A stretch of 64,000 nt of DNA from Lampris incognitus. Lineage: Eukaryota > Chordata > Actinopteri > Lampriformes > Lampridae. Position 1 is the first letter of the stretch. Each line of letters begins with the position of its first letter. Positions 25,440 through 55,735 of this stretch are shown here, in pieces. Position numbers and translations under genes: made by a program. The notes under the pieces are model-generated. The model was given only the letters and a program-made list of their open reading frames with translations, did no database searches and was not told the origin of the DNA. Location of the stretch: assembly GCF_029633865.1 (NCBI RefSeq), contig NC_079213.1, positions 84,702,803 to 84,766,802 of the forward strand. The letters run 5' to 3'.

Positions 25440-25850
25440 ACACCACCATCACTGTCCTCTACATCTACATCCCTTTTATATCCTATATACATGGACATCA
25501 CCATCACTGTCCTGTACATCTACATCCCTTTATATCCTTTATAAATGGACACCATCATCACTGTCCTTTACATCCCTTTTATAGACTATATACAAGGACA
25601 CCACCATCACTGTCCTGTACATCTACATCCCTTTATATCCTTTATACATGGACACCACCATCACTGTCCTGTACATCTACATCCCTTTATATCCTATATA
25701 CATGGACACCACCATCACTGTCCTGTACATCTACATCCCTTTATATCCTTTATACATGGACACCACCATCACTGTCCTGTACATCTACATCCCTTTATAT
25801 CCAATATACATGGACACCACCGTCACTGTCCTCTACATCTACACCTTTTT
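25440..25850. repeat. Minisatellite, unit about 54 bp, about eight copies
   Basis: Tandem units contain 'ggacaccaccatcactgtcc', then 'tgtacatctacatccc', then 'tttatatcctatatac'. Inner copies are nearly identical, outer ones diverged, and the third is a few bases shorter. Because 54 is divisible by three, all three plus-strand frames stay open across most of the array. The result is repetitive 73-189 codon frames that are artefacts, not genes. It is in an arrdc2 intron. Confidence 0.9.
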
Positions 25851-26467: not shown

Positions 26468-28086
26468 CACTACCGTTCAAAAGTTTGGGATCACCCAAAC
26501 AATTTTGTGTTTTCCATGAAAAGTCACACTTATTCACCACCATATGTTGTGAAATGAATAGAAAATAGAGTCAAGACATTGACAAGGTTAGAAATAATGA
26601 TTTGTATTTGAAATAAGATTTTTTTTACATCAAACTTTGCTTTCGTCAAAGAATCCTCCATTTGCAGCAATTACAGCATTGCAGACCTTTGGCATTCTAG
26701 CTGTTAATTTGTTGAGGTAATCTGGAGAAATTGCACCCCACGCTTCCAGAAGCAGCTCCCACAAGTTGGATTGGTTGGATGGGCACTTCTTGCGTACCAT
26801 ACGGTCAAGCTGCTCCCACAACAGCTCAATGGGGTTCAGATCTGGTGACTGCGCTGGCCACTCCATTACCGATAGAATACCAGCTGCCTGCTTCTGCTCT
26901 AAATAGTTCTTGCACAATTTGGAGGTGTGTTTAGGGTCATTGTCCTGTTGTAGGATGAAATTGGCTCCAATCAAGCACTGTCCACTGGGTATGGCATGGC
27001 GTTGCAAAATGGAGTGATAGCCGTCCTTATTCAGAATCCCTTTTACCCTGTACAAATCTCCCACCTTACCAGCACCAAAGCAACCCCAGACCATCACATT
27101 ACCTCCACCATGCTTAACAGATGGCGTCAGGCATTCTTCCAGCATCTTTTCATTTGTTCTGCGTCTCACAAACGTTCTTCTTTGTGATCCAAACACCTCA
27201 AACTTGGATTCATCCGTCCACAACACTTTTTTCCAGTCTTCCTCTGTCCAATGTCTGTGTTCTTTTGCCCATCTTAATCTTTTCCTTTTATTGGTCAGTC
27301 TCAGATATGGCTTTTTCTTTGCCACTCTGCCCTGAAGCCCAGAATCCCGCAGCCGCCTCTTCACTGTAGATGTTGACACTGGTGTTTTGCGGGTACTATT
27401 TAATGAAGATGCCAGTTGGGGACCTGTGAGGTGTCTGTTTCTCAAACTAGAGACTCTAATGTACTTATCTTCTTGCTCAGTTGTGCAACGCGGCCTCCCA
27501 CTTCTTTTTCTACTCTGGTTAGAGCCTGTTTGTGCTGTCCTCTGAAGGGAGTAGTACACACCGGTGTAGGAAATCTTCAATTTCTTAGCAATTTCTCGCA
27601 TGGAATAGCCTTCATTTCTAAGAACAAGAATAGACTGTCGAGTTTCAGATGAAAGTTCTCTTTTTCTGGCCATTTTGAGCGTTTAATTGACCCCACAAAT
27701 GTGATGCTCCAGAAACTCAATCTGCTCAAAGGAAGGTCAGTTTTATTGGCTTCTGTAACGAGCTAAACTGTTTTCAGATGTGTGAACATGATTGCACAAG
27801 GGTTTTCTAATCATCAATTAGCCTTCTGAGCCAATGAGCAAACACATTGTACCATTAGAACACTGGAGTGATAGTTGCTTGAAATGGGCCTCTATACACC
27901 TATGTAGATATTGCACCAAAAACCAGGCATTTGCAGCTAGAATAGTCCTTTACCACATTAGCAATGTATAGAGTGTATTTCTTTAAAGTTAAGACTAGTT
28001 TAAAGTTATCTTCATTGAAAAGTACAGTGCTTTTCCTTCAAAAATATGGACATTTCAATGTGATCCCAAACTTTTGAACGGTAGTG
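26468..28086 (-). mobile_element. Complete Tc1/mariner element, DD38E type (Intruder-like)
   Basis: The element is 1619 bp. The outer 27 bases at the left (26468-26494) are perfectly repeated, inverted, at the right (28060-28086), and begin CACTACCGTTCAAAAG. TA dinucleotides flank both ends (26466-26467 and 28087-28088), the Tc1/mariner target duplication. One uninterrupted transposase gene lies inside on the minus strand. Perfect terminal repeats, a clean TA duplication and an open gene indicate a recent insertion into the arrdc2 intron between exons 1a and 1b. Confidence 0.95.
26630..27673 (-). CDS. Tc1-family transposase, DD38E
   Basis: 347 aa, full length for a Tc1 transposase, which cuts and pastes the element at TA sites in the nucleus. 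The N-terminal paired-like helix-turn-helix region (about 1-110) contains YSMREIAKKLKISYTGVYY and a GRPR AT-hook (residues 59-62) between its two halves. The catalytic residues are Asp154 (LWTDESKFEV), Asp244 (LQQDNDPKHT) and Glu283 (SPDLNPIELLWEQ). Counting gives 38 residues between the second Asp and Glu, not the usual 34, which matches the DD38E ('Intruder') family described as a sibling of DD34E/Tc1. The glycine-rich GGGNVMVWGCFG box is intact. No stops or frameshifts. Start Met and length both fit the family. Activity is plausible but cannot be shown from sequence. Confidence 0.95.
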   Translation of the reverse strand: MARKRELSSETRQSILVLRNEGYSMREIAKKLKISYTGVYYSLQRTAQTGSNQSRKRSGRPRCTTEQEDKYIRVSSLRNRHLTGPQLASSLNSTRKTPVSTSTVKRRLRDSGLQGRVAKKKPYLRLTNKRKRLRWAKEHRHWTEEDWKKVLWTDESKFEVFGSQRRTFVRRRTNEKMLEECLTPSVKHGGGNVMVWGCFGAGKVGDLYRVKGILNKDGYHSILQRHAIPSGQCLIGANFILQQDNDPKHTSKLCKNYLEQKQAAGILSVMEWPAQSPDLNPIELLWEQLDRMVRKKCPSNQSNLWELLLEAWGAISPDYLNKLTARMPKVCNAVIAANGGFFDESKV

Positions 28087-39505: not shown

Positions 39506-39603
39506 CTACAACAAGAGTTCAGTTTCAGAAAGAGATTTCTCCAGCAGATCTGAACAATTGGACAATACAGTGTTGTTAGGGAGGACAATATTTATGAGGA
39601 TAG

Positions 39604-39810
39604 TGTAGAGGAGCTCAAGCAGGAGTCGTGACAACTTTCTCTTTCGGCTACAAAACGTGCACCATTTATTCCTTCCACCATTACAACAACAACAAACAAC
39701 CCGCGCAGCGGAAGTGTGTCACTGTAAACCCGAACCGAGGAAACAGCAGCTGTAAACTAACGTTCCTACTAGCTCAATAAGGGGAATTATGTAGCCCCAT
39801 AACCACTACA
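39604..39810 (-). repeat. LTR of Gypsy element A (3' LTR in element orientation)
   Basis: 207 bp, bounded by TG...CA (TGTAGAGGAG to AACCACTACA on the plus strand). It differs at only two positions from the LTR at 51210-51414. Flanked on its outer side by ATAG (39600-39603), matching ATAG at 51415-51418. A purine-rich tract (GGGGGGACGTG on the minus strand) adjoins its inner end, as expected for the polypurine tract next to a 3' LTR. Confidence 0.9.
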
Positions 39811-39831
39811 CACGTCCCCCCAGAATTCGCC

Positions 39832-42800
39832 TTAATACAAAAAGTCAGTGTGGCGAGGGGGGCGGATCTCTCTGCCCCCACGGCTCCGCTGAACAGGAGC
39901 TGGGGGCTGGTTAACCGCAGGCAAAGCAGCAGAGTCCTCACAGCTGGACCGGGGAAAGGGAGGGGCTGGGGGCAGAGCTGGGGGGCGCCCCCGCCATGGG
40001 GGCAGGGCAAGACCAACAGGGCGGTTTAAGTCCAGGTGAGCAGGCTTGAGGCGGTCCACAGAAACCCGCTCCAGCCTGCTGCCAACCTCCACCACAAAGT
40101 GCTTATCTCCAGTGTCCCGTACCCGAAATGGGCCGTCGTAGGGTGGCTGCAGGGGACCGCGGTGCGCGTCGTGACGGATGAAAACATACTCCGCCGACCG
40201 CAGCTCCATGGGGACATAGGACTGAGAGCCGCCATGCTGAGAAGTGGAGACCGGTGCAAAAGCCCTGGCTTCCTCCTGCAGCGCAGTCCGTTGGCATCTG
40301 GCGGACCAGGGAGCTGTGGCGGTGGGAAGGAAATCCCCCGGGACCCGAAGTGGCTGTCCGTAGACCAGTTCGGCGGATGAGGACTGGAGGTCCTCCTTGG
40401 GAGCCGTCCTGAGCCCAAGCATGACCCAAGGCAGTTTGTCGACCCAGCGGTCGTCCTTGAGGGTAGCCCGCAATGCGGCCTTCATTGAGCGATGGAACCT
40501 CTCGACCAATCCATACGCCTGAGGGTGATATGCTGTGGTGCGATGGAGCCTCACCCCTAAACCCGCGGCGATCTCCTCCCAGAGCGCTGACGTGAATTGC
40601 GGCCCTCTGTCCGAGGAGAGGTCAGATGGGGTGCCAAAGCGGGCGACCCAGGTTCCGATGAACGCTCGGGCAACCTCAGGCGCTGTCGTGGATGAAAGCG
40701 GGACGGCCTCTGGCCATCGCGTGGTCCTGTCGACCATGGTGAGCAGGTATGTGAAACCACGGGAGGGGGGTAGGGGGCCTACCAGGTCCCCATTCACGTG
40801 GTCGAACCTCCTCTCAGGTACCGTGAAAGGTATCAGGGGCGCTTTGACGTGCCGGAGCACTTTGGAACGTTGGCACTCCACACAGGTGTCAGCCCAGTCC
40901 CTCACATCCTTTTTGAGTCCATGCCAGACAAACTTTGCCGCCACCAACCTCTGTGAAGGCTTTCTGCCAGGGTGAGACAGCCCATGGACTGCGTCGAAGA
41001 CCCGTCGCCTCCAAGCAGTCGGAACGACTGGTCGGGGCTGACCCGTAGAGACGTCGCACAGGAGCATGGCGCCGGCGTCGTCGAAAGCCACATCCTCCAA
41101 CTGCAGCCCTGTGTCGGTGGTCCTGCATGCCTGCACGCCTGGGTCGGTGGCCTGGTCAGCTGCCATCCGGCTGTAGTCGAGTCCCAAATGGGCGGCACCA
41201 GCGATGGCCCTGGAGAGACAGTCAGCGACCGGGTTGGACTTCCCAGCGACATGCCTCACGTTGGTGGTAAACTCTGAGATGTAGGCCAACTGTCGCTGCT
41301 GGCGGGCTGACCACGGCTCTGCCACCTTGGCCATCGTGAACACCAGCGGTTTGTGACCGACGAAAGCCGTGAACTGACGGCCCTCCAGTAGGAAAGGAAA
41401 GTGGCTAACAGCGAGGAAAAGGCCAAGCAGCTCACGATCAAAGGTGCTGTATTTGCGCTCTCTCAGGTTCAACTGCCGACTGAAGAAGGCAAGCAGCTGC
41501 CACGCACCGCTCACCCACTGCTCATAAACCGCGCCGACAGCGTAGTCCAAAGCATCCGTCGTGATGGCAATGGGCGCTCCAGACACAGGGTGTGCCAGCA
41601 TCGCCGCGTCAGCCAGGGCGGCCTTCACATCCTTAAAAGCCGTGTCCCTCTCTGCAGACCAGTCCACAGCGTGTTTGGGGGCTGTGCCCTTCCGAGCCTC
41701 ATATAGGGGGCGGAGGAGATCTGCAGCCTGGGGGATAAACCGGTGATAGAAGGACACCATACCAATGAACTCCCGGAGGGACTGGGCCGTGTGTGGGTGT
41801 GGAAAGTCTGCAAAGGCCTCCACCTTAGATGGAAGCGGGGCCGCCCCGTCCTTGGTGACCCGGTGGCCCAGGAAGTCGATGGTGCTCAGACCAAACTGGC
41901 ATTTGGCAGGGTTAACTATCAACCCGTGCAGACTGAGTCTCTCGAAAAGGGCTCTGAGGCGGGACAAGTGCTCGGACACGGAGGTGCTAGCGACCAGGAT
42001 GTCATCCAGGTACACAAAGAGGAAAGGCAGGACCCGCAACACTGAGTCCATGAGGTGTTGGAAGGACTGCGCGGCGTTCTTAAGCCCAAACGGCATGCGC
42101 AGGAACTCAAACAGTCCGAACGGAGTTGTCACAGCCGTTTTGGGGACATCAGCAGGATGGACGGGCACCTGGTGGTATCCACGGACGAGGTCCACCTTGG
42201 AAAAGATCACTTTCCCAGCCAGGTGGGCGGAGAAATCTTGGATGTGAGGGACCGGGTAGCGGTCCGGTGTTGTTGCGTCATTGAGCCGACGGTAGTCACC
42301 ACATGGACGCCACCCACCGCCAGGCACTATGTGGAGGGGTGAAGCCCACGGGCTGCTGGTGCGACGGATGATGCCGAGGCGCTCCATGTTCTCAAACTCC
42401 GCCTTGGCGACAGAGAGCTTGGTCGGGTCGAGGCGCCGAGCTCGGGCGTGCACCGGCGGGCCGGTGGTGACGATGTGGTGCTCAACCCCATGTTTGGTCG
42501 TAGATGACGAGAATGTGGGCTGAGTGAGGTCAGGGAACTCGGAGAGAAGATGGAGAAACACGTCCTCATTGGAGAGCATGCTGGACAGCCTGACGGAGCC
42601 TGTATCGCTGAGTGCACACGCGTGTGAAGCGAAGGTGACAGCGTCAATCAGGCGTCGATTCCTGACGTCCACCAGCAGCCCGTGAGCACAAAGGAAATCT
42701 GCACCGAGGAGGGGAAATGCCACGTCGGCGGTGACAAAATCCCAGCTGAACCGCTGTCCGTTAAAACACATGTCAATGTGCCTCGTGCCGTACGCACGGA

Positions 42801-43071
42801 TAGAGCTGCCGTTAGCAGCTTCCATGGGAGGGCCGTTAGCGCCCGACAGGGCGTCCACACTCGATGCAGGTACGACACTCCTCTGCGCCCCAGTGTCGCA
42901 TAGGAAACGCCGCCCCGAGATGGAGTCTCGCAGGAAAAGTAGCCTGTTGTCCTCCATGCCGACGCCCATGGCCACTAGTGAGCGCCGGCCTTGGCGTTTC
43001 CCGACGAGCTGAAATTGCACGGGGAGGTGCACTTTTTCGCCTTGGCCCCGAACTTTGCATGGTAAAAGCAC
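39832..43071 (-). CDS. Pol polyprotein of Ty3/Gypsy element A
   Basis: 1079 aa, uninterrupted. Aspartic protease DTGA at residues 59-62; reverse transcriptase with [12 protein letters not shown] (Asp294) and YLDD (354-357); RNase H ([15 protein letters not shown]); integrase with an HHCC-like zinc region (HGLSHPGRK...CVECQ) and a DDE core ([23 protein letters not shown]). The PR-RT-RH-IN order defines Ty3/Gypsy. The motif [11 protein letters not shown] has Tyr where Asn is usual. Pol overlaps gag and lies in the -1 frame relative to it, implying frameshift expression. The gene is open, but the element lacks its gag start, so it is not a complete autonomous copy. The gag finger type suggests the CsRn1-like group. 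Confidence 0.93.
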
Positions 43072-43503
43072 AGGCCGGGCTCCTGTCGCCGACCGGGGGT
43101 TGCCGCGGCGACCACCATGGAGTCACCAGGTGGTGGCGTGTGGGGGTGGGCAGGGGTGAGCGCGGACGCGCAGTGCTGCTGTTGGCTGGCCAAGAAGAAC
43201 TTGTCAGCTTCTTCAGCTAGCTTGCGGCAATCGGTAATGCTGGTGTTAGCCAAAGCGGTCCGCACCTGAGCAGGCAGTTGTCGCAGAAACAGTTGTACTA
43301 AGAGGAAATCAGGTGTGTGCGCCGGTCCCAGCAGATTCAGCATTTTGTCCATGAGCTCGGATGGCTTGCTGTCACCCAAGCCTTGCAGAGAAAAGAGACG
43401 GTGGGCCCTCTCGGCGTCGGAAAGTTCAAAAATCTTCAAGAGGTGGTCTTTGAGCCCCTTGTATTTGTCTCTCGCCGGAGGATTTGTAAGGAGACTCACC
43501 ACT
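42975..43503 (-). pseudogene. C-terminal gag remnant of element A
   Basis: It begins abruptly at the junction with element B's LTR. The frame reads VSLLTNPPARDKYKGLKDHL onward and includes a zinc-finger-like [18 protein letters not shown], with spacing C-x2-H-x9-C-x3-C. That CHCC pattern differs from the usual CCHC knuckle and is known from CsRn1-type Gypsy elements. The N-terminal part of gag is missing. An open frame of 208 codons reaches 43601, but its first 33 or so residues are the antisense of element B's LTR, not gag. Confidence 0.8.
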
Positions 43504-43619
43504 CCCCACAACACCTGGGGCCCCACCCAAAATGGAACACAACGCAGAGCTAACGATGAGAGTGACGGGCGTGCAGCAGGCTGACCAGCATAGAACACCA
43601 TAGGACTGCCCCCGTTACA
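43504..43619 (+). repeat. Truncated 5' LTR of Gypsy element B
   Basis: 116 bp matching the last 116 bases of the 3' LTR (51094-51209) with a single difference. The first 614 bases of the expected 730-bp LTR are missing; minus-strand gag of element A lies directly to the left. The end GTTACA is followed at 43620 by the primer-binding region. Confidence 0.88.
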
Positions 43620-43637
43620 TTGGTGCCGTGACCCTCC
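43620..43637 (+). promoter_or_regulatory. Probable primer-binding site of element B
   Basis: TTGGTGCCGTGACCC immediately after the LTR end looks like the complement of a tRNA 3' end plus linker, as used to prime minus-strand DNA synthesis. I cannot assign the tRNA with certainty. Confidence 0.6.
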
Positions 43638-44084
43638 TGGATCCTGAGAGCGACATCAGTTGCTCGCCGCGGGAGGCTGCTGTCGTCATCAAGCCCCAGA
43701 CGTCCTCAGGTATTTCTATAGACTGTACACACACTCATGTTACAGTGGACTGGAGTTGAGCTGTGTGGACACTGGACAGTCATAGCTGTGGTTACCATGG
43801 ACTGGGCTTGTGAACAGGACATTTGTATATATTGAAGGAAGAAAAACACACGGAAAAAAAAAGGAAAAAAAGTTAATGTTGATGTGATTGAAGGACTCGT
43901 GTGAATAATCTATTGATGTAAACTACTAGATATGTGCATATGTGATTCATCTATTGGTGAATTTGTTGATTGTATGTGATTGTTTCAATCTCTTAGTGCT
44001 TTCTAGATTCAATTATTTAAATGAATTGAGCTTTTCACTTTTTTATTTTATTTTTTATTTTATCTGAGTGTTAGACGTAGGAAC

Positions 44085-45634
44085 ATGGCAGAGGGTGGTT
44101 CGTACGTAGGTGGGGGTAACATTGCTGATCAGGATCTTTTGGATCGCCAGTGTGCTATGGAGAGGGGGTACCAGTTAGATGTGGGTGGGGGTTTACGGCT
44201 AGGTGTAGGTAGGAGTTTCGGGCAGCTCTTAGAGGGCGGGGAACCAGACACCAGAGCACCAGGACCTAGAGACCCGACCACATTTAGCACTCCTCAGTTC
44301 ACCTCCACACGCTATGTAGAACGGGCCAGGCCAGGTATCAGCGAAGGGGCTGTGCTGGGTAACAGCGAGCAGCCAGTGGGTGAGTTAGCCATGCTCATTA
44401 CTCAGTTAGCAGAGAAGATAGGAGAGTCAATCACTGCTAAGCTGCAGGAAACACAAATGCTTAGAAACACACACACAGACAGTGCTAGGTCTGCTGAACA
44501 GCGTTCGGAGACAGTGCCTAGTGTTAGAGTAGTAGTGTTAGAGTAGTAATGCAGACAGACGCTAGGGAGCCTCCTATTTTCAGGGGCGATAGCTCTGATA
44601 AGTTTACAGTTCATGAGTGGGAGAGCCTTATGACTTTGTATTTGAGGAAGCGAGCCATTCCAGTTAGTGAGCAGTCACATGAGATTCTAGCTAAGCTTAT
44701 GGGGAAAGCAGGGGACGTGGTGAGGATAAAGCTGCGCAACACATCTGTCGACCACATAGCGAACCCCCACATTATTTTTGATGTACTGAAGCAACACTTT
44801 AGTGACCTCACATACTCGAGCATGCCCCTGGCGGACTTTTACAGTACGCTGCCCAAGCCAGGTGAGGACGCTATGGAGTATTGGATTAGGCTTAATAAGA
44901 CAGTGGAGGTGGCTGACGAATGCTTGAAGTGGCAGGGCCGTAGTATTGAAGAGCCAAGCCACGAGGTAAGCATGATGTTTATCAAACACTGTCCAGATCA
45001 GTCTCTTGCCAATGTTTTTAAGTTCAAGTCCGCAGGGAGATGGTCTGCTAGTGAGATCCAAGAGAGGCTTGATGAGCACATGCTGGAGAGGAAGTCCCGT
45101 GTTGCTGCAGGTGGACAACGTGAAGCAGGCGCGGTAGAGCGTAGGTTCCATTCACAGGTTCATGTCCCTGTAGTCGACGTGGCTCCCGACTTGAACACGA
45201 CCGTGCCGGTGGTGCCATCTCCCGTCCCGGCTCATGCGTCATCTCCTACACCATTTTGTGCAAGGTCTCCTACACCGTCTCCTGCACCTGTCTCTGGCGG
45301 TGATGACTATATGAGGAGTTTGGTGAGCTTGCTAGACCGTTTGGTCACAATGCAGACTCAGGTTCCAGTTAGCGCTGCAGTCCGGACACCGACGCAGACT
45401 CAACCGCCAGCTAGCGCCGCAGGGCAGGTGCCAGACGCACCGCAGCGGTTGTGCGGGGTTTGTAAGTCTCCGGATCACTCCACATTTTCCCACTGCAGCC
45501 GGGAGAACCGATGTATAAACTGTTTGTCTCCTGGTCATTGGAAGAGGGACTATCCTCACCCTCAGCCGCCCAACCAGCTCCGTTCTCAGCCTGGTGGAAG
45601 AGCTGGTCATCAGTCTCGTCCGTTAAACTACTAA
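44085..45634 (+). pseudogene. Gag of Gypsy element B, frame broken
   Basis: Two frames: 44085-44546 (153 aa, starts MAEGGSYVGGGNI) and 44549-45634 (361 aa, with FRGDSSDKFTVHEWESLM and a capsid-like region). The break coincides with a perfect 14-bp tandem duplication (44520-44533 and 44534-44547), which shifts the frame by two and creates the stop. Near the C-terminus a first Cys/His cluster is CGVCKSPDHSTFSHC. The second knuckle is CINCLSPGHWKRDY, where the final Cys is Tyr. Pol overlaps the end in the -1 frame. Confidence 0.88.
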
Positions 45635-48600
45635 ACCCACACCTAGAGAGGGATGGTGTGGGTAATGTAGATGTATCCCTCACTGATGTCTCCGACCTGG
45701 CTCACTTGTATGAAGACAAGTGTGCCAAAGTACCTCAGGGTTCGCGTATGTTCATTCAGGCGACACAGAGGATTCAGGCTTTCAGTGACTTGTTCTATGC
45801 TCCTGTTCTTGTCAACCAGAGTGTGCAGCTTAATGGCATGTTGGATACTGGCTCTATGTCATGCAGTATCAGTGAAAATGCAGTAGAAAAGCTCCGCTCT
45901 GGGGGTGTTTTACCTGAGAAGCAGCAGCCTGAAGAGAACATTGTCTTGATTGGCTGCGGTGGTCTGGAGACTAGGCCTGATGGTTTTTATGACTTCAACA
46001 TGCAGCTTTATGGTGTTTCCTTTGTCATACCCACTGTGGTCGTGCCCGGTCAGCATGATGATCTGATAGTCGGCACAAACGTCATTAAACATGTGGCCCA
46101 TGTACTCAAGAGTGGTACTGAGTACTGGGACATCGCGTCCAGACAGGAACATCCGTCTAGTCCTGACGTTGAACAGTTCCTGTCCATGTTCACGAATGTA
46201 GAGCGCTGGAGGGGTGGTGCAGTTCCTGAGAAGATAGGTACTGTTAAGCTCACCCAGGCCGTGACACTCTTACCGAGGCACGAGCACTTAGTCTGGGGCA
46301 GACTTCCTGCTAAGGTGCCTATGTCAGCTGGAAGCACTGTTGTTGTGGAGCCGACAGACTCCAAGGCCATGCCACGTGGTGTCCTCGTAGGTCGACTTGT
46401 CACACCGCTCTGGGGTGATAGGTGGGTACCCATGACTGTTGTCAATCCGTCTGACAAAGCCATCACGCTGAAAAGGAACTGCAAGTTGGCTGATGTGTTT
46501 CCATGCTTGGCGATTGAGGACTTTAATGTTTTCCAGGGACTGCAATCAGTTACGGGGAGGCATGAGTCCAACGCCACAGGTAGTGCCTGTCCCCCTGTCC
46601 AGCCGGCTAGGAGTTTGTCAGAGCTCGGACTCAGTGACATTGACCTCAGCTCCTGTCAGGTTAGTGAGGCATGCAAGTCCCAGCTCACTCAGCTGCTCAC
46701 CGAGTACCATGACATCTTCTCCAGGGACTCTCTGGACTGTGGCGAGGTCACAGGATACACACATCGCATCCATCTGGTGGATGAGCGCCCCTTTCGCTTG
46801 CCCTACAGGAGGGTTCCCCCAGCCCACTATCAGAAGTTGAGACAGGTTCTCACTGATATGGAGGAGAAAGGGATTATCCGGAAGTCCTCGAGCGCATACG
46901 CTTCACCGCTGGTTATGGTGTGGAAGAAGGATGGCGGGCTTCGGATCTGCACTGATTTCAGATGGCTGAATGCTCGAACCTTGAAAGACGCTCATCCCTT
47001 GCCACACCAGTCGGACTGTCTTGCCGCGCTGGGTGGTAACTGCCTCTTTAGTATGATGGACCTCACCTCTGGCTTCTTCAACATCCCAATGCATGAAGAT
47101 GACAAGAAGTACACTGCTTTCACGACTCCCCTTGGGTTGCATGAATACAATCGCATGCCACAGGGCCTTTGTAATAGCCCTGCAGCCTTCATGAGAATGA
47201 TGATTGGGATCTTTGGGGATCTGAACTTCACGAAGCTTTTGTGCTATCTTGATGATCTTCTTGTCTTCGCGCCGTCAGAGGTTGAGGCTCTGTCGAGGCT
47301 CCGCACTGTGTTTCAGAGGTTGAGGGAGAACAACTTGAAACTGGCTCCAAAAAAGTGTCATCTGCTGCAGAAGCAGGTGCGGTTTTGGGGCCACGTGGTT
47401 GATGGCGGAGGTGTGTCTGTCGATCCCTCCAAAGTAGAGGTAATCTCCAACATGACAGTGCAGGATCTCATGGAAGGTGATGGGTGCACGCCTTCTGTTT
47501 CCTTGGTATGGTATTTTACTACCAGCATTTCCTCCCGAACTGCTCCTCCGTGGCTAAGCCCCTGTTCGCCCTTACAGCTGGACAAAAGAGGAGGGGGAGG
47601 TCAGCTAAGGATAAGAAGCCCCATGGCAGCTTCCGTAAGCTTACCTCCGCAGACTGGACGGGGGAATGTGGGGAAGCATTTGATCTGTTGAAGACGATGT
47701 TACTGGAGTGTGTGGTGCTTGCCCATCCAGACTTTGAGGTGCCTTTCATTTTGTCGGTCGATTAGTCTTTGGACGGACTCGGCGCGGGGCTGTCTCAAGT
47801 GCCACGAGGAGAGTCCAAGGCCAGACCTGTTGGTTTTGCAAGCAAGTCCCTCAGTGCCTCACAGCGGAAGTATCCAGCTCATAGACTGGAGTTCATGGCG
47901 CTGAAGTGGAGTGTTTGTGAAAAATTCAGCCACTGGCTGAAGGGTCAAAGCTTCACCGTTTGGACAGACAATAATCCGCTGACTTATCTCCTAACGAAGC
48001 CAAAGCTTGATGCGTGTGAGATCCGCTGGGTGTCTAAGTTGGCGTCTTACACCTTCGATCTCAAACACCTGCCAGGGAAGAAAAACGTGGTGGCGGATGC
48101 ATTGAGTCGCGACCCTTTTTCCAAGCCCGTCAGTCAGAGGCTAGTTAGGGAGCCCTACCCGGCCCTTGTTCAGGAAGCCGACGGGGTTGAGGGGGACTCT
48201 GTGCAGGATGTTTTCAGACTCAGTTGCCAGTCCCAAACAGTGAGCAGTGCGCGATCTGGGTTTGCTTGTGATGCAGCTGAGGTCAGGGCTTTTTGTCAAG
48301 CCAAATGTGACTGGCCTGATGCATCAGTATTCACAGCACTCAGTTTGGTCCAGCACGTTCAGCATCTGTCGGGTGGTCAGGATACACCGCCAATGTTATC
48401 CACCGAGGAGCACAGGTTGAGTCAGGAGCAGGACCCCTGCATCTCCAAGGTGTTGCCCTTTGTCGCTGTTCGGAAGCGGCCATCGAGACGTGAGAGGCAT
48501 GGTGCTGACCAGAAGGTCCTCAGTCTGTTGAAACAGTGGGAGAAGTTGGAAGTCAATGATGGTGTCTTGTACAGGGTGACAAAGGACCCAGTGTTCAAGC

Positions 48601-50177
48601 AGAGGAGGTCTCAGTATGTTTTACCTCTGAGTCTGAAAGACAAGGCACTGTCTGGCATCCACGATCACGCTGGTCATCAGGGCCAGGACCGTACTCTCTC
48701 TCTTGCAAGGCAGCGTTTTTATTGGCCTGACACGGAGAGGGATATCAGAGCATATGTCAGATGCTGTCGGAGATGTGTGTTTGGGAAGACCCCAGAGCCA
48801 GCTGCTTGCGCGCCCCTGGAGAGCATTAAAACCTCCGCACCGACGCAGCTTGTGTGTATGGATTTCTGGTCCGCTGAGGACAGTAAGCAGCGGTCGGTCG
48901 ATGTCCTAGTGGTTACTGACCACTTCACTAAGCTTGCTCACGCGTTCCCCTGTGCCAATCAGACAGCGAAGCAGGTCGCCAAGAAACTCTGGGATCATGT
49001 ATTCTGTGTTTACGGGTTTCCGGAGAGAATACATTCTGACCAGGGCACAAATTTTGAGAGCAACCTGATTGCAGAGCTTCTCAGGTTGGCGGGTGTAGCG
49101 AAGTCCCACACAACGGCCTACCATCCTATGGGTAATGGCGGGACAGAGCGGTTTAATCGCACGATGGGGAATATGCTCCGTTCCCTTCCGCTTCAGCAGA
49201 AGCAACAGTGGCATCAGCAGATCCATTCTCTCACGCTCGCGTACAATGCCACTGTTCACGAGACCACGGGTTACCCGCCTTTCTTCCTGATGTATGGGCG
49301 TGTCCCAAGACTGCCGGTGGATGTTATGTTCAGGCAGGTTCTGCATGACCCTCACGTTGTTGACTATAACTCTTATGCTCAGTCTCTGCTTTCCTGTCTA
49401 AGGAGTGCAATGGAGATCGCTCAGAAGCACTCCACGGCTGAGCAGCAGCATCAGGCGCGACAGTACAACAGACACGCCAAGGGCACTGTCCTGTCTGTCG
49501 GGGATTGTGTTTTGGTTGCGAACCAGAGTGAGCGAGGGAAGAGAAAGTTGGCTGACAAATGGGAGAACGGAGTGTACACGGTTGTCGGTGTCAACCCCAA
49601 TATCCACGTCTACAAGATTCAGGATGCAGAGGGGCACACCAGGGTGGTGCACAGGAACCGTTTGTTGGAGGTCAACTTCTTGCCCCTTCCTGAGTTAGAT
49701 CAGGGTGAGGAGTCCAGTACAACCAGTCAGTTGCTTGACTGCGCAGAGTCCGATGAGGAGGACAGTGCAGATGGCCTGACGGTCTCAGGGGATGCAGTGG
49801 GGCTAGCAGTCTCATCACTTGGAGACTCGCCTAGATCTGAGTGGGCAGAAGCGGAAGAGTTCATTCCGTCTAGTCTGGTAGTCAGTCCTGTGGGGGCCAC
49901 TGCTCAGTCTCCACCCAACATACACGCACCACACAACACACATGCACCACACATAGAGGCATCACACTCACTCGATGTAGGTGTTATATCTCACACTGAT
50001 TCGCACACAGGGGCACCACCCTCACTCGATACAGATGTTGCAGCTCGCACTGTCTCACGCACACAAGTAGAGAGCAATGGTCGGGTTAGGACACGCACAG
50101 GGAGGGTGGTGAGGTCAGTGAACAGGTTAATAGAATCTATGGCTCAGATGCCATTTCTACGGAGTGCGAGGGTTTGA
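45511..50177 (+). pseudogene. Pol of Gypsy element B, frameshifted and with a stop
   Basis: Protease LDTGS (Asp codon 45844); reverse transcriptase with MMDLTSGFFNIPMHEDD and CYLDDLLVF (47245-47256). After about 47490 the frame jumps, with a few residues apparently lost before FLGMVFYYQHFLPN, and continues in another frame through the RT-RNase H boundary. A TAG at 47763-47765 interrupts that frame (FILSVD, stop, SLDGLGAGLSQ). Frame 47769-50177 (802 aa) holds RNase H (WTDNNPLTYLL), integrase zinc region (HDHAGHQG...CRRCVFG) and core: Asp at 48861, Asp at 49038 and Glu at 49145 (TERFNR). No chromodomain is seen. PR-RT-RH-IN order makes it Ty3/Gypsy, of a different lineage from element A. Confidence 0.9.
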
Positions 50178-50479
50178 ACTTTGATGGAGGTTGGAGTCAT
50201 TCAAACTAGTTTAATGTGAGTTATTAGGTGTCTATCAGACAGGGTTGTTTTGGGCCAAGTGCATGGTGTGGCGTATCAGGCGTCACATTGATCTAAGGGA
50301 ATTCTGAGACTTGATCAACCTCATTATTTTCTGGACCTCGTAACTGAGGTAGCTCCTAAGTTGACTGGAGGACTAGGTCCTTCTTTTCACTTGTGCCAGT
50401 AGTCAGTGATGGGCTTTTCCTTTCCTCTTTCTCTTTTTATCCTGCTGTCAGGATGTTGGTGAATTTCAGGAGGGGTGAA

Positions 50480-51049
50480 TGTAACCAGGTTAAAATTAAT
50501 GTTTTTATTTTATTTTGTTTGAGTATGAAATATCACCAAATCCTGTCTGTGTGCTGTTATTAGTGTTTACTACATTTTATTTTATGTCATTATTTACTTT
50601 TATGTATGTTTTATAACGACCGTCATATACTTGTACTGTCGCTTTAAGAGCGAGGTCTTGTGGGTACACGGAAGAGGGAACGCGGGAGAGGCCATTTTTG
50701 TTTTGTGGAGGGAGTCTCAAGCAGCGATCGAGCCGAGCCACGCGTGTTTCTTACCGTAGCACAGTTTTGCTGGTTGAGGAGAACGTAACCTTGAGTATCC
50801 CTGTAAGAAGATACTGCAAGCTGTGGGATAAAATACTTGTTTATCCTTTCTTACATCGGAGTCCCGTGGACGGTTTCTCCTTCTAACGCACACGAGTGAA
50901 GTCCGGGCAGTGGTTGAGCTTCGACCCCCACGTCCGTAAGAAACACCGCTCCAGCTGGAGGACTGGACGTTTGTCGAAGGGTTTGAAACCAAAATAAATG
51001 GCAAGGTGAGCCAAATAGAGTCCTGTGTGTTCCCCCTCCTTCCTTGATC

Positions 51050-51080
<31 letters not shown>

Positions 51081-51209
51081 GAGACTGAGGGCCCCCCACA
51101 ACACCTGGGGCCCCACCCAAAATAGAACACAACGCAGAGCTAACGATGAGAGTGACGGGCGTGCAGCAGGCTGACCAGCATAGAACACCATAGGACTGCC
51201 CCCGTTACA
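50480..51209 (+). repeat. 3' LTR of Gypsy element B
   Basis: 730 bp, starting TGTAACCAGG after a purine-rich tract (CAGGAGGGGTGAA) and ending CCCGTTACA. TGTAAC/GTTACA form a 6-bp terminal inversion. It includes an ATG-trinucleotide run near 51052-51079. It abuts the LTR of element A at 51210, so B had inserted just inside the end of A's 5' LTR. Confidence 0.88.
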
Positions 51210-51414
51210 TAGAGGAGCTCAAGCAGGAGTCGTGACAACTTTCTCTTTCGGCTACACAACGTGCACCATTTGTTCCTTCCACCATTACAACAACAACAAA
51301 CAACCCGCGCAGCGGAAGTGTGTCACTGTAAACCCGAACCGAGGAAACAGCAGCTGTAAACTAACGTTCCTACTAGCTCAATAAGGGGAATTATGTAGCC
51401 CCATAACCACTACA
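51210..51414 (-). repeat. LTR of Gypsy element A (5' LTR in element orientation)
   Basis: 205 bp, the partner of 39604-39810 minus its outermost TG. Followed by ATAG (51415-51418), the same 4 bases that precede the left LTR. This proves the two LTRs belong to one insertion now split by element B. Confidence 0.9.
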
Positions 51415-51567
51415 ATAGAGTCTTATAAGTGTGTCTCGAAATGGAAGTCCATATTTAAGACCCGAACTCCAAAGCAATGACTCTGCTGGAAGAGATTTTA
51501 GGTGTTTTTGTCATTATCATCACTATCATCATTATTTGCTGGAATGAGACATGTTCTCTAGGATGTT

Positions 51568-51655: not shown

Positions 51656-54077
51656 ATGTGAGTATGATCATAACTAGAAACATCTCCAAAGTTGATCTGC
51701 TCAGATGATCATTCTGTCTGTAACGATCGCTTGGGGTTGATCTCAAAGGCGTTAAATTCATAAAGCTAAACTTTCTTTAATACTTGCATCCTTACAGGAG
51801 GCCTGTATGAAAATACCTTTCAAGGGTTTCTGAGACAAATAAAATAAAATAAAAATCTCAAAAATGATCAGTTTTGTTTGTTAACACCTGTTGAGCAATC
51901 TAAGGTGAGGCTAAGTGCTCACCTTAAAACTACATTTGGCATTTTACTTCCCCGTCAAACACATCGAATACCTAACATGTATGTCTTCTCCAATACGGTC
52001 TGGTTTCAAGATGGCGGCGTGCTGGGCTCCCTGTTTAGTGCTATGTTTTCTTTGTTATTTATACGTTAGTTTTAAGTTTACTTACAAGTGTAGGTCATGC
52101 GCTCTTCTACAGCCGTTAGGAACTTTTAAACCTCAGAACGGATTACTCACTTCCCTCCACCATCACGGACAATTTCCCCATTGATAAAATCCGCTCGCCG
52201 GTCTCGCAGTGGAAGCGCTGCCCCCGTCGGCAACGTAAACAGAAGAGGGGGAAACGAGGCGGGCTACATGCTAAGCCAAGTAGCGCTCCCTTCAAAGTTT
52301 CCCTCCCCAGCATCTACATGGCTAATATCCGATCGTTAGCTAACAAAATGGACGAGATAAGACTCAGGCTGTCCCCTCAGAAAAGGCTGCAGAACTGCTG
52401 TCTGCTGATGTTTACGGAGACTTGGCTCAACAGCAACATAGCCGACTCGGCAGTCGAGCTAGTGGGCCGCACAGCCTTCCGTGCCGACAGGACAGCGGAC
52501 TCCGGCAAGATCCGCGGAGGAGGTTTGAGTATTTATGTCAATAACTCTTAGTGCAACAATATAAAGATCGTTGAAAGGCATTGCTCTGCTGATCTCGAGC
52601 TCCCTATGATTCAGTGCAGGCCTTTTTACCTGCCCAGGGAGCTAACGGCCACTACCATCGCCGCTGTATACATCCCCCCACATGCTAATGCTAAGGTAGC
52701 ACTTAAGCAGCTACAATGTGCCATCAGCAGACAACAGACCAAACGCTCGGATAATGCCTTTATCATAGGTGGTGATTTTAATCAGGCTAACCTCATGGCT
52801 GTATTGCCCAAATTCCATCAGCATGTCTCCTGCCCCACTAGGGGACAAAACACCCTGGACCATCTCTATACAAACATTAAGGACTCATACAAAGCTACTC
52901 CCTGCCCCCACCTGGGGCATTCTGACCACCTCTGCCTGTTCCTGGTCCCAGCCTACAAACCCCTAATAAAACGGGTCAACCCTGCAGTAAAGGCAATCAC
53001 TGTCTGGCCAGAAGGAGCAGTCACTGAATTCCAGGACTGTTTTGACAACACAGGCTGGAGTATTTTTGCACATTCAGCTACCCATGGCTCCCATATAGAC
53101 ATTAATGAACAGACATCTGCCATACTATCCTACATTAACTTTTGCACTGAGAGTGTCACAACAAAAAATCAATCTGCGCCTTTCCAAACCAGAAACCCTG
53201 GATGACCAGTGAGGTCCGGGAGCTGCTGAAAGTCCGGGATGTAGCGTTCAAGTCAGGTAACTGTGAGGCCTACAGCGCAGCCAGATCCAACCTCAAAAAG
53301 GGCATCAGAACAGCCAAACATAAATTTTCCCTACGAATAGAGGACCACTTTCACAATAACGCCGATCCCCGGCAAATGTGGCAAGGCCTTCAGTCTATCA
53401 CAGACTGCAAAAGCTCCAATAGTGGTCCCACTGTCCATGATGCCTCCCTGCCAGACAAGCTAGATCATTTCTATGCCTGCTTCGACAAGGACAATACTGA
53501 CCCAGCCACAAAAATCTCCAGCCACCCAGAAAACCAGGTGCTCCCTCTATCGACCACAGAGGTCAGAGAATCACTGCGCAGAGTGAACACACGGAAGGCT
53601 GCCGGACCGGATGGCATACTGGGTCGGGTCCTCCGGGAATGTGCTGACCAGCTGGCTGAGGTTTTCACAACTATATTTAACCTCTCACTGTCCCAATCCG
53701 TAGTCCCGGCATGCTTTAAGACCATCTCTATCATTCCTGTCTCCAAGAAACCAACATCCACATGTCTGAATGACTACCGATCCATAGCACTCATCCCCAT
53801 TGCCATGAAGTGCTTTGAGAGACTGGTTCTGGCTCACATCAAAAACATTATCCCCCCCACATTTGACCCACATCAGTCGCCTACCATCCCAAAAGGTCTG
53901 CTGAGGATACCATTGCCACTGCCCTGCACCTTGCTCTGACCTACCTTGAACTTAACAACACATACATCCGGATGCTGTTTATAGATTATGACTCTGCCTT
54001 CAACACTATCATCCCCGCCAAACTAACCATCAAACTCCTCTCCCTTGCACCCTGGACTTCCTGACCAACAGACCTTA

Positions 54078-54692
54078 TGCTACGTTCAGACCAAAGGCGG
54101 CGAGAGAGTTGGCGCCGCTTTGTTCGCCAGAGTTTGGCCGCCAGCTTCGCCAGGTGTGTTCGAACAGAACGCGAATTCGCTGTGTTGACGTCACAACAAG
54201 CAGACTAGTTACACCAACGCTGCTAGCAAGTTTGCTAGACCGCACACAACAAATACCACACACGAGCAGTTTGTGTTTACTTGTGATCATCATGGATGAG
54301 CGACAGAGATCAGTTGTGGTGGCTCTGCTTTATATCAACTTGCGCCGCCGAAACCGGCGTCAGCGTTCGGTTTGGGTTCATAGCATAAACCGGAGACGTG
54401 CCCAGCTTGGCGAATTTCACCGGAATTCTGGGTAGGGGGCGTGTATTCTTTCTCAACATGAAGGCGGGTTCTAACCCTACTTGAAGGTGATTGGCTATCG
54501 CCTGGCGAAATCTTCGCCCGAGTTGGACATTTTTGAACTCCCGCGAAGACGCGCGTTCGTCGCTCGATTCGCCCAATTCGCGCCGCCCGTAATTTCGCCG
54601 CGAATTATTCCGCCCATTCGCCTCCTCCCATTGACTTTGCATGCATTCGCGCCGCCCAAAAAATTCTCGCCGCCTTTGGTCTGAACGTAGCA
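54078..54692 (+). mobile_element. PIF-Harbinger-type deletion derivative inside the LINE
   Basis: The ends are inverted repeats (TGCTACGTTCAGACC... and its complement, continuing through AAAGGCGGCGAGA). Both ends are flanked by TTA (54075-54077 and 54693-54695), the 3-bp target duplication typical of PIF-Harbinger. The right subterminal region has repeated ATTCGCC/ATTCGCGCC motifs. Length 615 bp, far short of an autonomous element. It is younger than the LINE it interrupts. Confidence 0.9.
54292..54435 (+). pseudogene. N-terminal remnant of Harbinger transposase
   Basis: 47 codons starting MDERQRSVVVALLYINLRRR, followed by RQRSVWVHSINRRRAQLGEF and a stop. The 'W-V-H-x-I-x-x-R-R-x-x-x-G-E-F' pattern is the start of PIF-Harbinger nuclease-type transposases. 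The DDE catalytic domain is entirely absent. This is evidence that the element is an internal deletion of an autonomous Harbinger. Confidence 0.75.
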
Positions 54693-55735
54693 TTAGTCTG
54701 TTAGGTTAGGTGACCACACCTCCTCCACCCTGACCCTCAGCACAGGTGCCCCTCAAGGCTGTGTTCTGAGCCCCCCCCTTTCTTCCTCTTTACCCACGAC
54801 AGCCTGTCAACTCACCCTTCAAATGTTATAGTTAAGTTTGCAGATGACACCACAGTCATTGGCCGTATCACCATCAATGACGAGACGGCCTACAGGGACG
54901 AGATTCAGTACCTCACATCATGGTGTACTACCAACAGTCTTGTCCTCAATGTGCAGAAGACGAAGGAGCTGATTGTGGACTTCAGGAGGTCTAGAAGCTG
55001 CAGCCATTCCCCCATACACATCAATGGGGTGGAAGTGGAGCATGTTTCCAGCTTTAAATTCCTTGGAGTGCACATCAGTGAGGAACTTTCCTGGACATCA
55101 AACACTCAGGCCCTTGTGAAAAAGGCCCAACAACGCCTGCATTTCCTGAGGAGGCTGAGGAGTGCCCGTCTGTCCCCCAAAATTCTCACCAACTTCTACC
55201 ACTGCACCATAGAGAGAATCCTGACCAGCTGCATCTCAGTGTGGTACGGCAATTGCACCTCAGTAGACCAGAAAGCTCTGCAGTGGGTTGTCAAGGCGGC
55301 CCAGCATATCACCGGTACCCAGCTCCCAGCCATAAAAGACATTTATCACAAACGCTGCCTTCGAAGGGGTCTCAGCATCAGCAGAGATCCCACCCACCCC
55401 AACCATGGACTGTTCTCCCCCCTGCGCTCTGGGAGGCGCTACAGGAGCCTCAGAGCCCGCACTACAAGGCTCAAAAACAGCTTCTTTCCACAAGCTGTTG
55501 TCCACCTGAACCTGGTTACCCACTGAATCTCTGTAGATATTTTTTTTAATTGTTTGTGCTCTTGCTCTTTTTTTAAACTTATTTTTAGCTTTTGGTCTTC
55601 ATGTGTGTATATCTTATACTGTGTTTGCTGTTTGCCTGTGTCTGTCTTGCACTGTTTGGTGAAGCCACAGCCCTCATTTCATTTTTAACATGTGCCTGCA
55701 CATTGTTTTTAATGACAATAAGTTGAATTGTGTGT

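Follow-up and report, generated by a model that had tools for sequence, protein, structure and literature searches.

Nested LTR retrotransposons that have undergone later deletions are well known in cereal genomes, and the integrase of an LTR element joins both ends of the element to its target and creates a target-site duplication. Two departures from this course have been described that bear on nested or truncated elements. In one-ended retroviral integration, integrase joins one end while host repair attaches the other, and DNA is lost from both the target and the element (as related in the relevant sections of PMC5041404), while the template-switch complexes treated by Sabot and Schulman are built, in the part of their account that concerns us, from elements of the same kind that all face one way; they contain a third LTR, which is internal, and target-site duplications flank the whole (PMC1950507). 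Among Gypsy elements, the marks named for the CsRn1 clade are the CHCC Gag motif CX2HX9CX3C and a tRNA-Trp primer site, and Gmr1-type elements are set apart by an integrase that precedes the reverse transcriptase (RT) (both from passages of PMC2582038); listings for fish give CsRn1 elements of 4337 and 4552 bp and, for Barthez1-6, a spread of 7.3-8.8 kb in length, 259-1116 bp in LTR and 355-879 aa in gag (tabulated in part of PMC11117352).

The locus examined here lies in a 64-kb stretch of DNA containing 0 N (C3:84702803-84766802; "the window" denotes this whole stretch), and all comparisons with other copies were made within the single 1.48 Gb assembly that contains it. It consists of two Ty3/Gypsy LTR retrotransposons in opposite orientation, a plus-strand element B within a minus-strand element A (Table 1); LTR pairs, Pfam domains and strands all agree with the original prediction in this respect. 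The Pfam domains run RT, RNase H, integrase in both elements, the order characteristic of Ty3/Gypsy, and Gmr1-type Gypsy is excluded for A and B alike, since integrase follows RNase H and does not precede RT. The LTRs of A had been called near-identical, and they differ by two substitutions only (39653/51257 and 39668/51272), with an exact ATAG bordering the element on either outer side; the right-hand LTR lacks its inner TG, so that B does adjoin it two bases from its end, as had been proposed. The remnant of the B 5' LTR differs from the B 3' LTR at one position (43534 versus 51124). With two differences in 205 positions for A and one in 115 for B, the description of these insertions as fairly recent holds: both are young.

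Table 1. Features of the nested locus, with positions counted from the first base of the window
Feature	Position	Strand	Basis
Left target-site duplication of A, ATAG	39600..39603		sequence comparison
3' LTR of A, 207 bp, TG..CA	39604..39810	-	LTR alignment
A pol, 1096-aa open frame: RT, RNase H, integrase zinc finger, integrase core	39832..43122	-	Pfam, translation
Residual A gag with CHCC motif, first ~56 codons absent	42975..43504	-	translation, comparison to relatives
Left junction, A gag to B LTR	43504..43505		1-nt common C; once in assembly
5' LTR remnant of B, last 115 of 730 bp	43505..43619	+	LTR alignment
B primer-binding site TGGTGCCGTGACCC	43621..43634	+	sequence
B gag-like open frame, about 360 aa	44549..45634	+	open frame; no Pfam match
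B pol part one, RT; frame stops at end	45466..47691	+	open frame, Pfam
B pol part two, RNase H and integrase, different frame	47766..50177	+	open frame, Pfam
3' LTR of B, 730 bp, TGTAAC..GTTACA	50480..51209	+	LTR alignment
Right junction, B end GTTACA to third base of A LTR	51209..51210		once in assembly
5' LTR of A, 205 of 207 bp, inner TG absent	51210..51414	-	LTR alignment
Right target-site duplication of A, ATAG	51415..51418		sequence comparison

Judged by its sequence, A appears to be a CsRn1-type Gypsy element, since it carries the marks named for that clade: the CHCC motif occupies 18 residues of its gag frame, and its relatives elsewhere in the assembly bear a tRNA-Trp-type primer site. 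The likeness extends to the 4-bp target-site duplication, the LTR of about 200 bp and an estimated full size of about 4.33 kb; the copy in the window departs from the clade in being without primer site and gag start. What it has lost can be read from these relatives. A search of the assembly with A gag, in which 40 of 1319 candidates were scored, returned at least 39 loci besides the window that match at about 98% identity, and in 27 of the 29 examined among these 39 an inner LTR lies beyond the position that corresponds to the breakpoint, at a distance of 226 bp in 22 and of 224-225 bp in 5 (in the other 2 of the 29 no inner LTR was found above the score used). The intervening stretch, in the three copies that were read, comprises the tRNA-Trp-type primer site, the leader and the first 56 gag codons. 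Directly after the LTR stands a C followed by TGGTGACCCCGACGT in two of these three, with one change in the third, a site of the tRNA-Trp type as judged by the 3' end of tRNA-Trp. The copy of A in the window is thus short of 228 bp: two bases of the 5' LTR are gone together with primer site, leader and some 56 codons of gag, and the absence of these parts, already claimed for this copy, is borne out by intact relatives that carry them. Of 11 further A copies tried, 7 allowed the duplication to be scored, and in 5 of these it is 4 bp long and exact; the remaining two are tandem-like, and in 4 of the 11 no left LTR was present at the expected place. The tandem-looking copies (L086/L050 and L082/L042) have an A LTR directly after the primer site and leader of A, or after the apparent start of another A LTR.

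Element B resembles Barthez-type fish Gypsy in size only, with an estimated length of about 8.3 kb, a gag of about 360 aa and an LTR of 730 bp, all within or near the listed spread. The bases of its primer site also stand directly after the LTR in the majority of the B copies with which it was compared, and its target-site duplication is 4 bp long, being exact in 9 of 11 scorable pairs and carrying one mismatch in the other two (16 copies were tried, 5 of them without a usable 3' end). Within the LTR, a TATA-like ATAAAATA lies at position 349 and AATAAA at position 514. The remnant in the window begins at LTR position 616, or at 615 if the common C at 43504 is counted as B, and hence downstream of AATAAA; 614-615 of 730 bases are missing from the outer part of the 5' LTR when it is set against the 3' LTR, in keeping with the 614 first reported. 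We considered whether the start of the remnant might be the 5' end of the RNA and rejected it, as the remnant would fall wholly in U5. Further searches added little: a PDB sequence search with the gag frames of A and B gave nothing credible (best E-values 0.23 and 0.021), none of the IMG/VR pattern matches (8 for A gag, 2 for A RT) was confirmed, and an Rfam scan of the window at the gathering threshold together with a tRNA scan returned no matches.

The two junctions are unlike each other. At the right, B ends exactly at its LTR terminus, and at the left both elements are truncated; A and B have only 1 nt in common at either join. With up to two mismatches allowed, the assembly contains either junction a single time, stretches that read N and might hide a second copy being outside this search, and reversed control patterns of both gave no match. 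There is accordingly no sign of any movement of the composite after its formation, and the idea of a composite that is itself a mobile unit is rejected on the single occurrence of each junction. Three LTR substitutions are private to the locus, namely those at 39653 and 51272 (27 of 27 relatives carry the other base of the pair in each case) and at 43534 (20 of 20), and they most simply represent changes that would have arisen in place after insertion. At 43491-43496, 8 nt upstream of the left join, GAGACT stands in register in A and in the B LTR. Among 200000 random pairs a run of this length was met in 0.19% (15 nt leftward) or 0.67% (20 nt to each side), and an equal number of total matches near the join in 0.45% or 10%, respectively; the test was chosen after the match had been noticed. 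This match hints at a repair guided by short homology, which would fit either order of events discussed below.

The account that we regard as probable, with some reserve, is that B was inserted into A by integrase and that one deletion of about 846 bp followed. A would have inserted at ATAG, where integrase joined both ends and left the 4-bp duplication that is observed. B, the larger Gypsy element, would then have entered in opposed orientation at bases 3-6 of the right LTR of A, a position that is observed, the role of integrase being what we infer. Later, the single deletion of ~846 bp would have taken the 226 bp of A that comprise the gag start, leader and primer site, along with the two final bases of the A LTR, the left 4-bp duplication of B and 614-615 bp of the B 5' LTR, and would have closed over no more than 1 nt of common sequence; the loss itself is observed, and its order and single step are presumed. 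We favour this account because of the matching LTRs and duplications of A, the 226-bp loss, the exact end of B, the single-copy junctions and the private substitutions taken together. Against it, no A holding a complete B was seen, the left duplication of B is gone, and the target flank of B is a middling match to the preference of B. The original prediction had gone further, holding that a simple insertion could not give this structure and that a deletion spanning the junction must have followed: it stands that A and B have both lost sequence where they meet on the left, but the necessity of a later deletion does not, as one-ended integration would leave an identical sequence, and so would the capture of B cDNA at a break.

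One-ended integration is to our minds the less likely course, though one to be taken seriously. Integrase would have joined only the U5 end of the B 3' LTR, the free U3 end would have lost 614-615 bp to trimming, and host repair would have attached it to A gag at a distance of 228 bp, all in a single event, a natural germline case without any intermediate allele. It would accommodate the fact that sequence is missing to the left of the insertion only, with the opposite end exact, as well as the join with at most 1 nt in common, and such integration has been described for ASLV and HIV upon failure of one end (in the passages of PMC5041404 devoted to it). Those aberrant integrations share with the locus one exact end, one truncated end and the loss of adjacent target DNA; in the same passages they are known from experiments with drugs or mutants, whereas here we have a candidate only. 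No sequence feature tested, however, sets one-ended integration apart from later deletion, and the LTR losses that other B copies show at either end make later deletion plausible.

These losses emerged from a survey of 38 B loci scored in the assembly besides the two matches of the window, all of which were fetched and 37 of which have the B leader; as the sample consists of the best-scoring matches, the proportion may be different among B copies at large. Of the 37, 33 keep the 5' LTR to its outer end and one further copy is tandem (L010), while in three (L016, L098, L106) the outer part is absent or else displaced by an insert, which would have to exceed the 0.5-0.7 kb fetched upstream. On the 3' side, where the sample was the 16 loci, out of 20, that have a simple complete 5' LTR (L010, L012, L016 and L025 being excluded), the LTR is cut short or interrupted in two copies (L065, L072) and was not seen at the expected place in three more. 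Such losses of outer LTR ends lend support to the ordinary reading, that of later deletion, and to the view that the locus is young and ordinary, its terminal loss not being peculiar to it. A truncation at the start of the RNA finds no support here either: a cut at the point where the remnant of the window starts is absent from all 38 further B LTR loci fetched, and the three matches that start within 2 bases of that point belong to LTRs that continue upstream with small variants, two reaching LTR position 1 and the third position 354. Two observations from the survey are recorded for their own sake. L010 (G000:C2:88456200-88457780) holds two tandem B units with one common LTR, in which TGT is kept and the sequence then jumps to position 354, with about 350 bp of U3 missing. 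L094 (G000:C3:9530246) and L095 (G000:C3:9316112) lie ~214 kb apart and have nearly the same 16-base 5' flanks, and may both have been carried by a segmental duplication.

More doubtful again is a third course, in which a B cDNA degraded from its 5' end was taken up by end-joining, without integrase, when a double-strand break in A was repaired. The right junction would be compatible with it, as an uncleaved B cDNA end would carry a T that matches the T of A, and LTR-element sequence has been found captured at breaks in mouse zygotes (in the portion of PMC4516963 that deals with such captures). The 3' end of B must, however, have survived to its last base by chance, and the two natural cases given in that portion were cut at both ends, although they had been selected for that. 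Target preference is neutral towards capture. The right flank of B would be TAGA; its left duplication is gone, and integrase joining is not demonstrable at the left side of B for that reason. With a position-weight score derived from 26 flanks, the flank of B is equalled by 19% of all sites in the window and exceeds 3 of the 26 real flanks, and the resulting density ratio of 1.02 does not separate integrase joining from end-joining; a YNNR pattern noted by eye as support for integrase was dropped in view of this ratio.

An assembly error at one junction, by which two separate copies were joined, is very improbable: A and B are multi-copy and young, which invites misjoins, but both junctions lie inside a 118-Mb contig, the window is without N, and a misjoin by overlap is unlikely when the two elements have only 1 nt in common at each join. 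Practically negligible is a composite that arose before integration, through recombination of cDNAs or through template switching, and then entered the genome in a single insertion. Although it would likewise give outer target-site duplications and matching outer LTRs, as seen in the cereal template-switch complexes (on the description drawn from PMC1950507), the elements joined in those complexes are of one kind and point the same way, and a third LTR is present, whereas A and B are different and opposed, and neither junction has a second copy in the assembly.

Neither element should be able to move from its place any longer, A because its primer site and gag start are absent, and B because it lacks the outer 5' LTR (U3 and R, by its signals) and because its pol is broken, being split over two frames, the second of which is directly preceded by a stop at 47763-47765. 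Other repeats occupy the window. Adjoining A, broken LINE-like frames with traces of endonuclease and RT extend over 52120-55526 (+), part of which is covered by the ALKBH8_N Pfam model; a Tc1/mariner-type transposase has an open frame of 350 aa at 26630-27682 (-), and a tandem array with a 54-bp unit (7.6 copies, 89% matches) lies at 25440-25843. The LINE and Tc1-like neighbours, taken with the families to which A and B seem to belong, point to a fish genome.

Taken alone, the locus matters little, nested LTR elements and junction deletions being the standard decay of mobile-element families, but a genome-wide set of truncated insertions of B in A could gauge the frequency of one-ended Gypsy integration. 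With the nested LTR elements of cereals it shares an element within an element and a loss that spans the junction; it differs from them in that the many near-identical copies of A present in the same genome reveal, to the base, the sequence of the host element before insertion.
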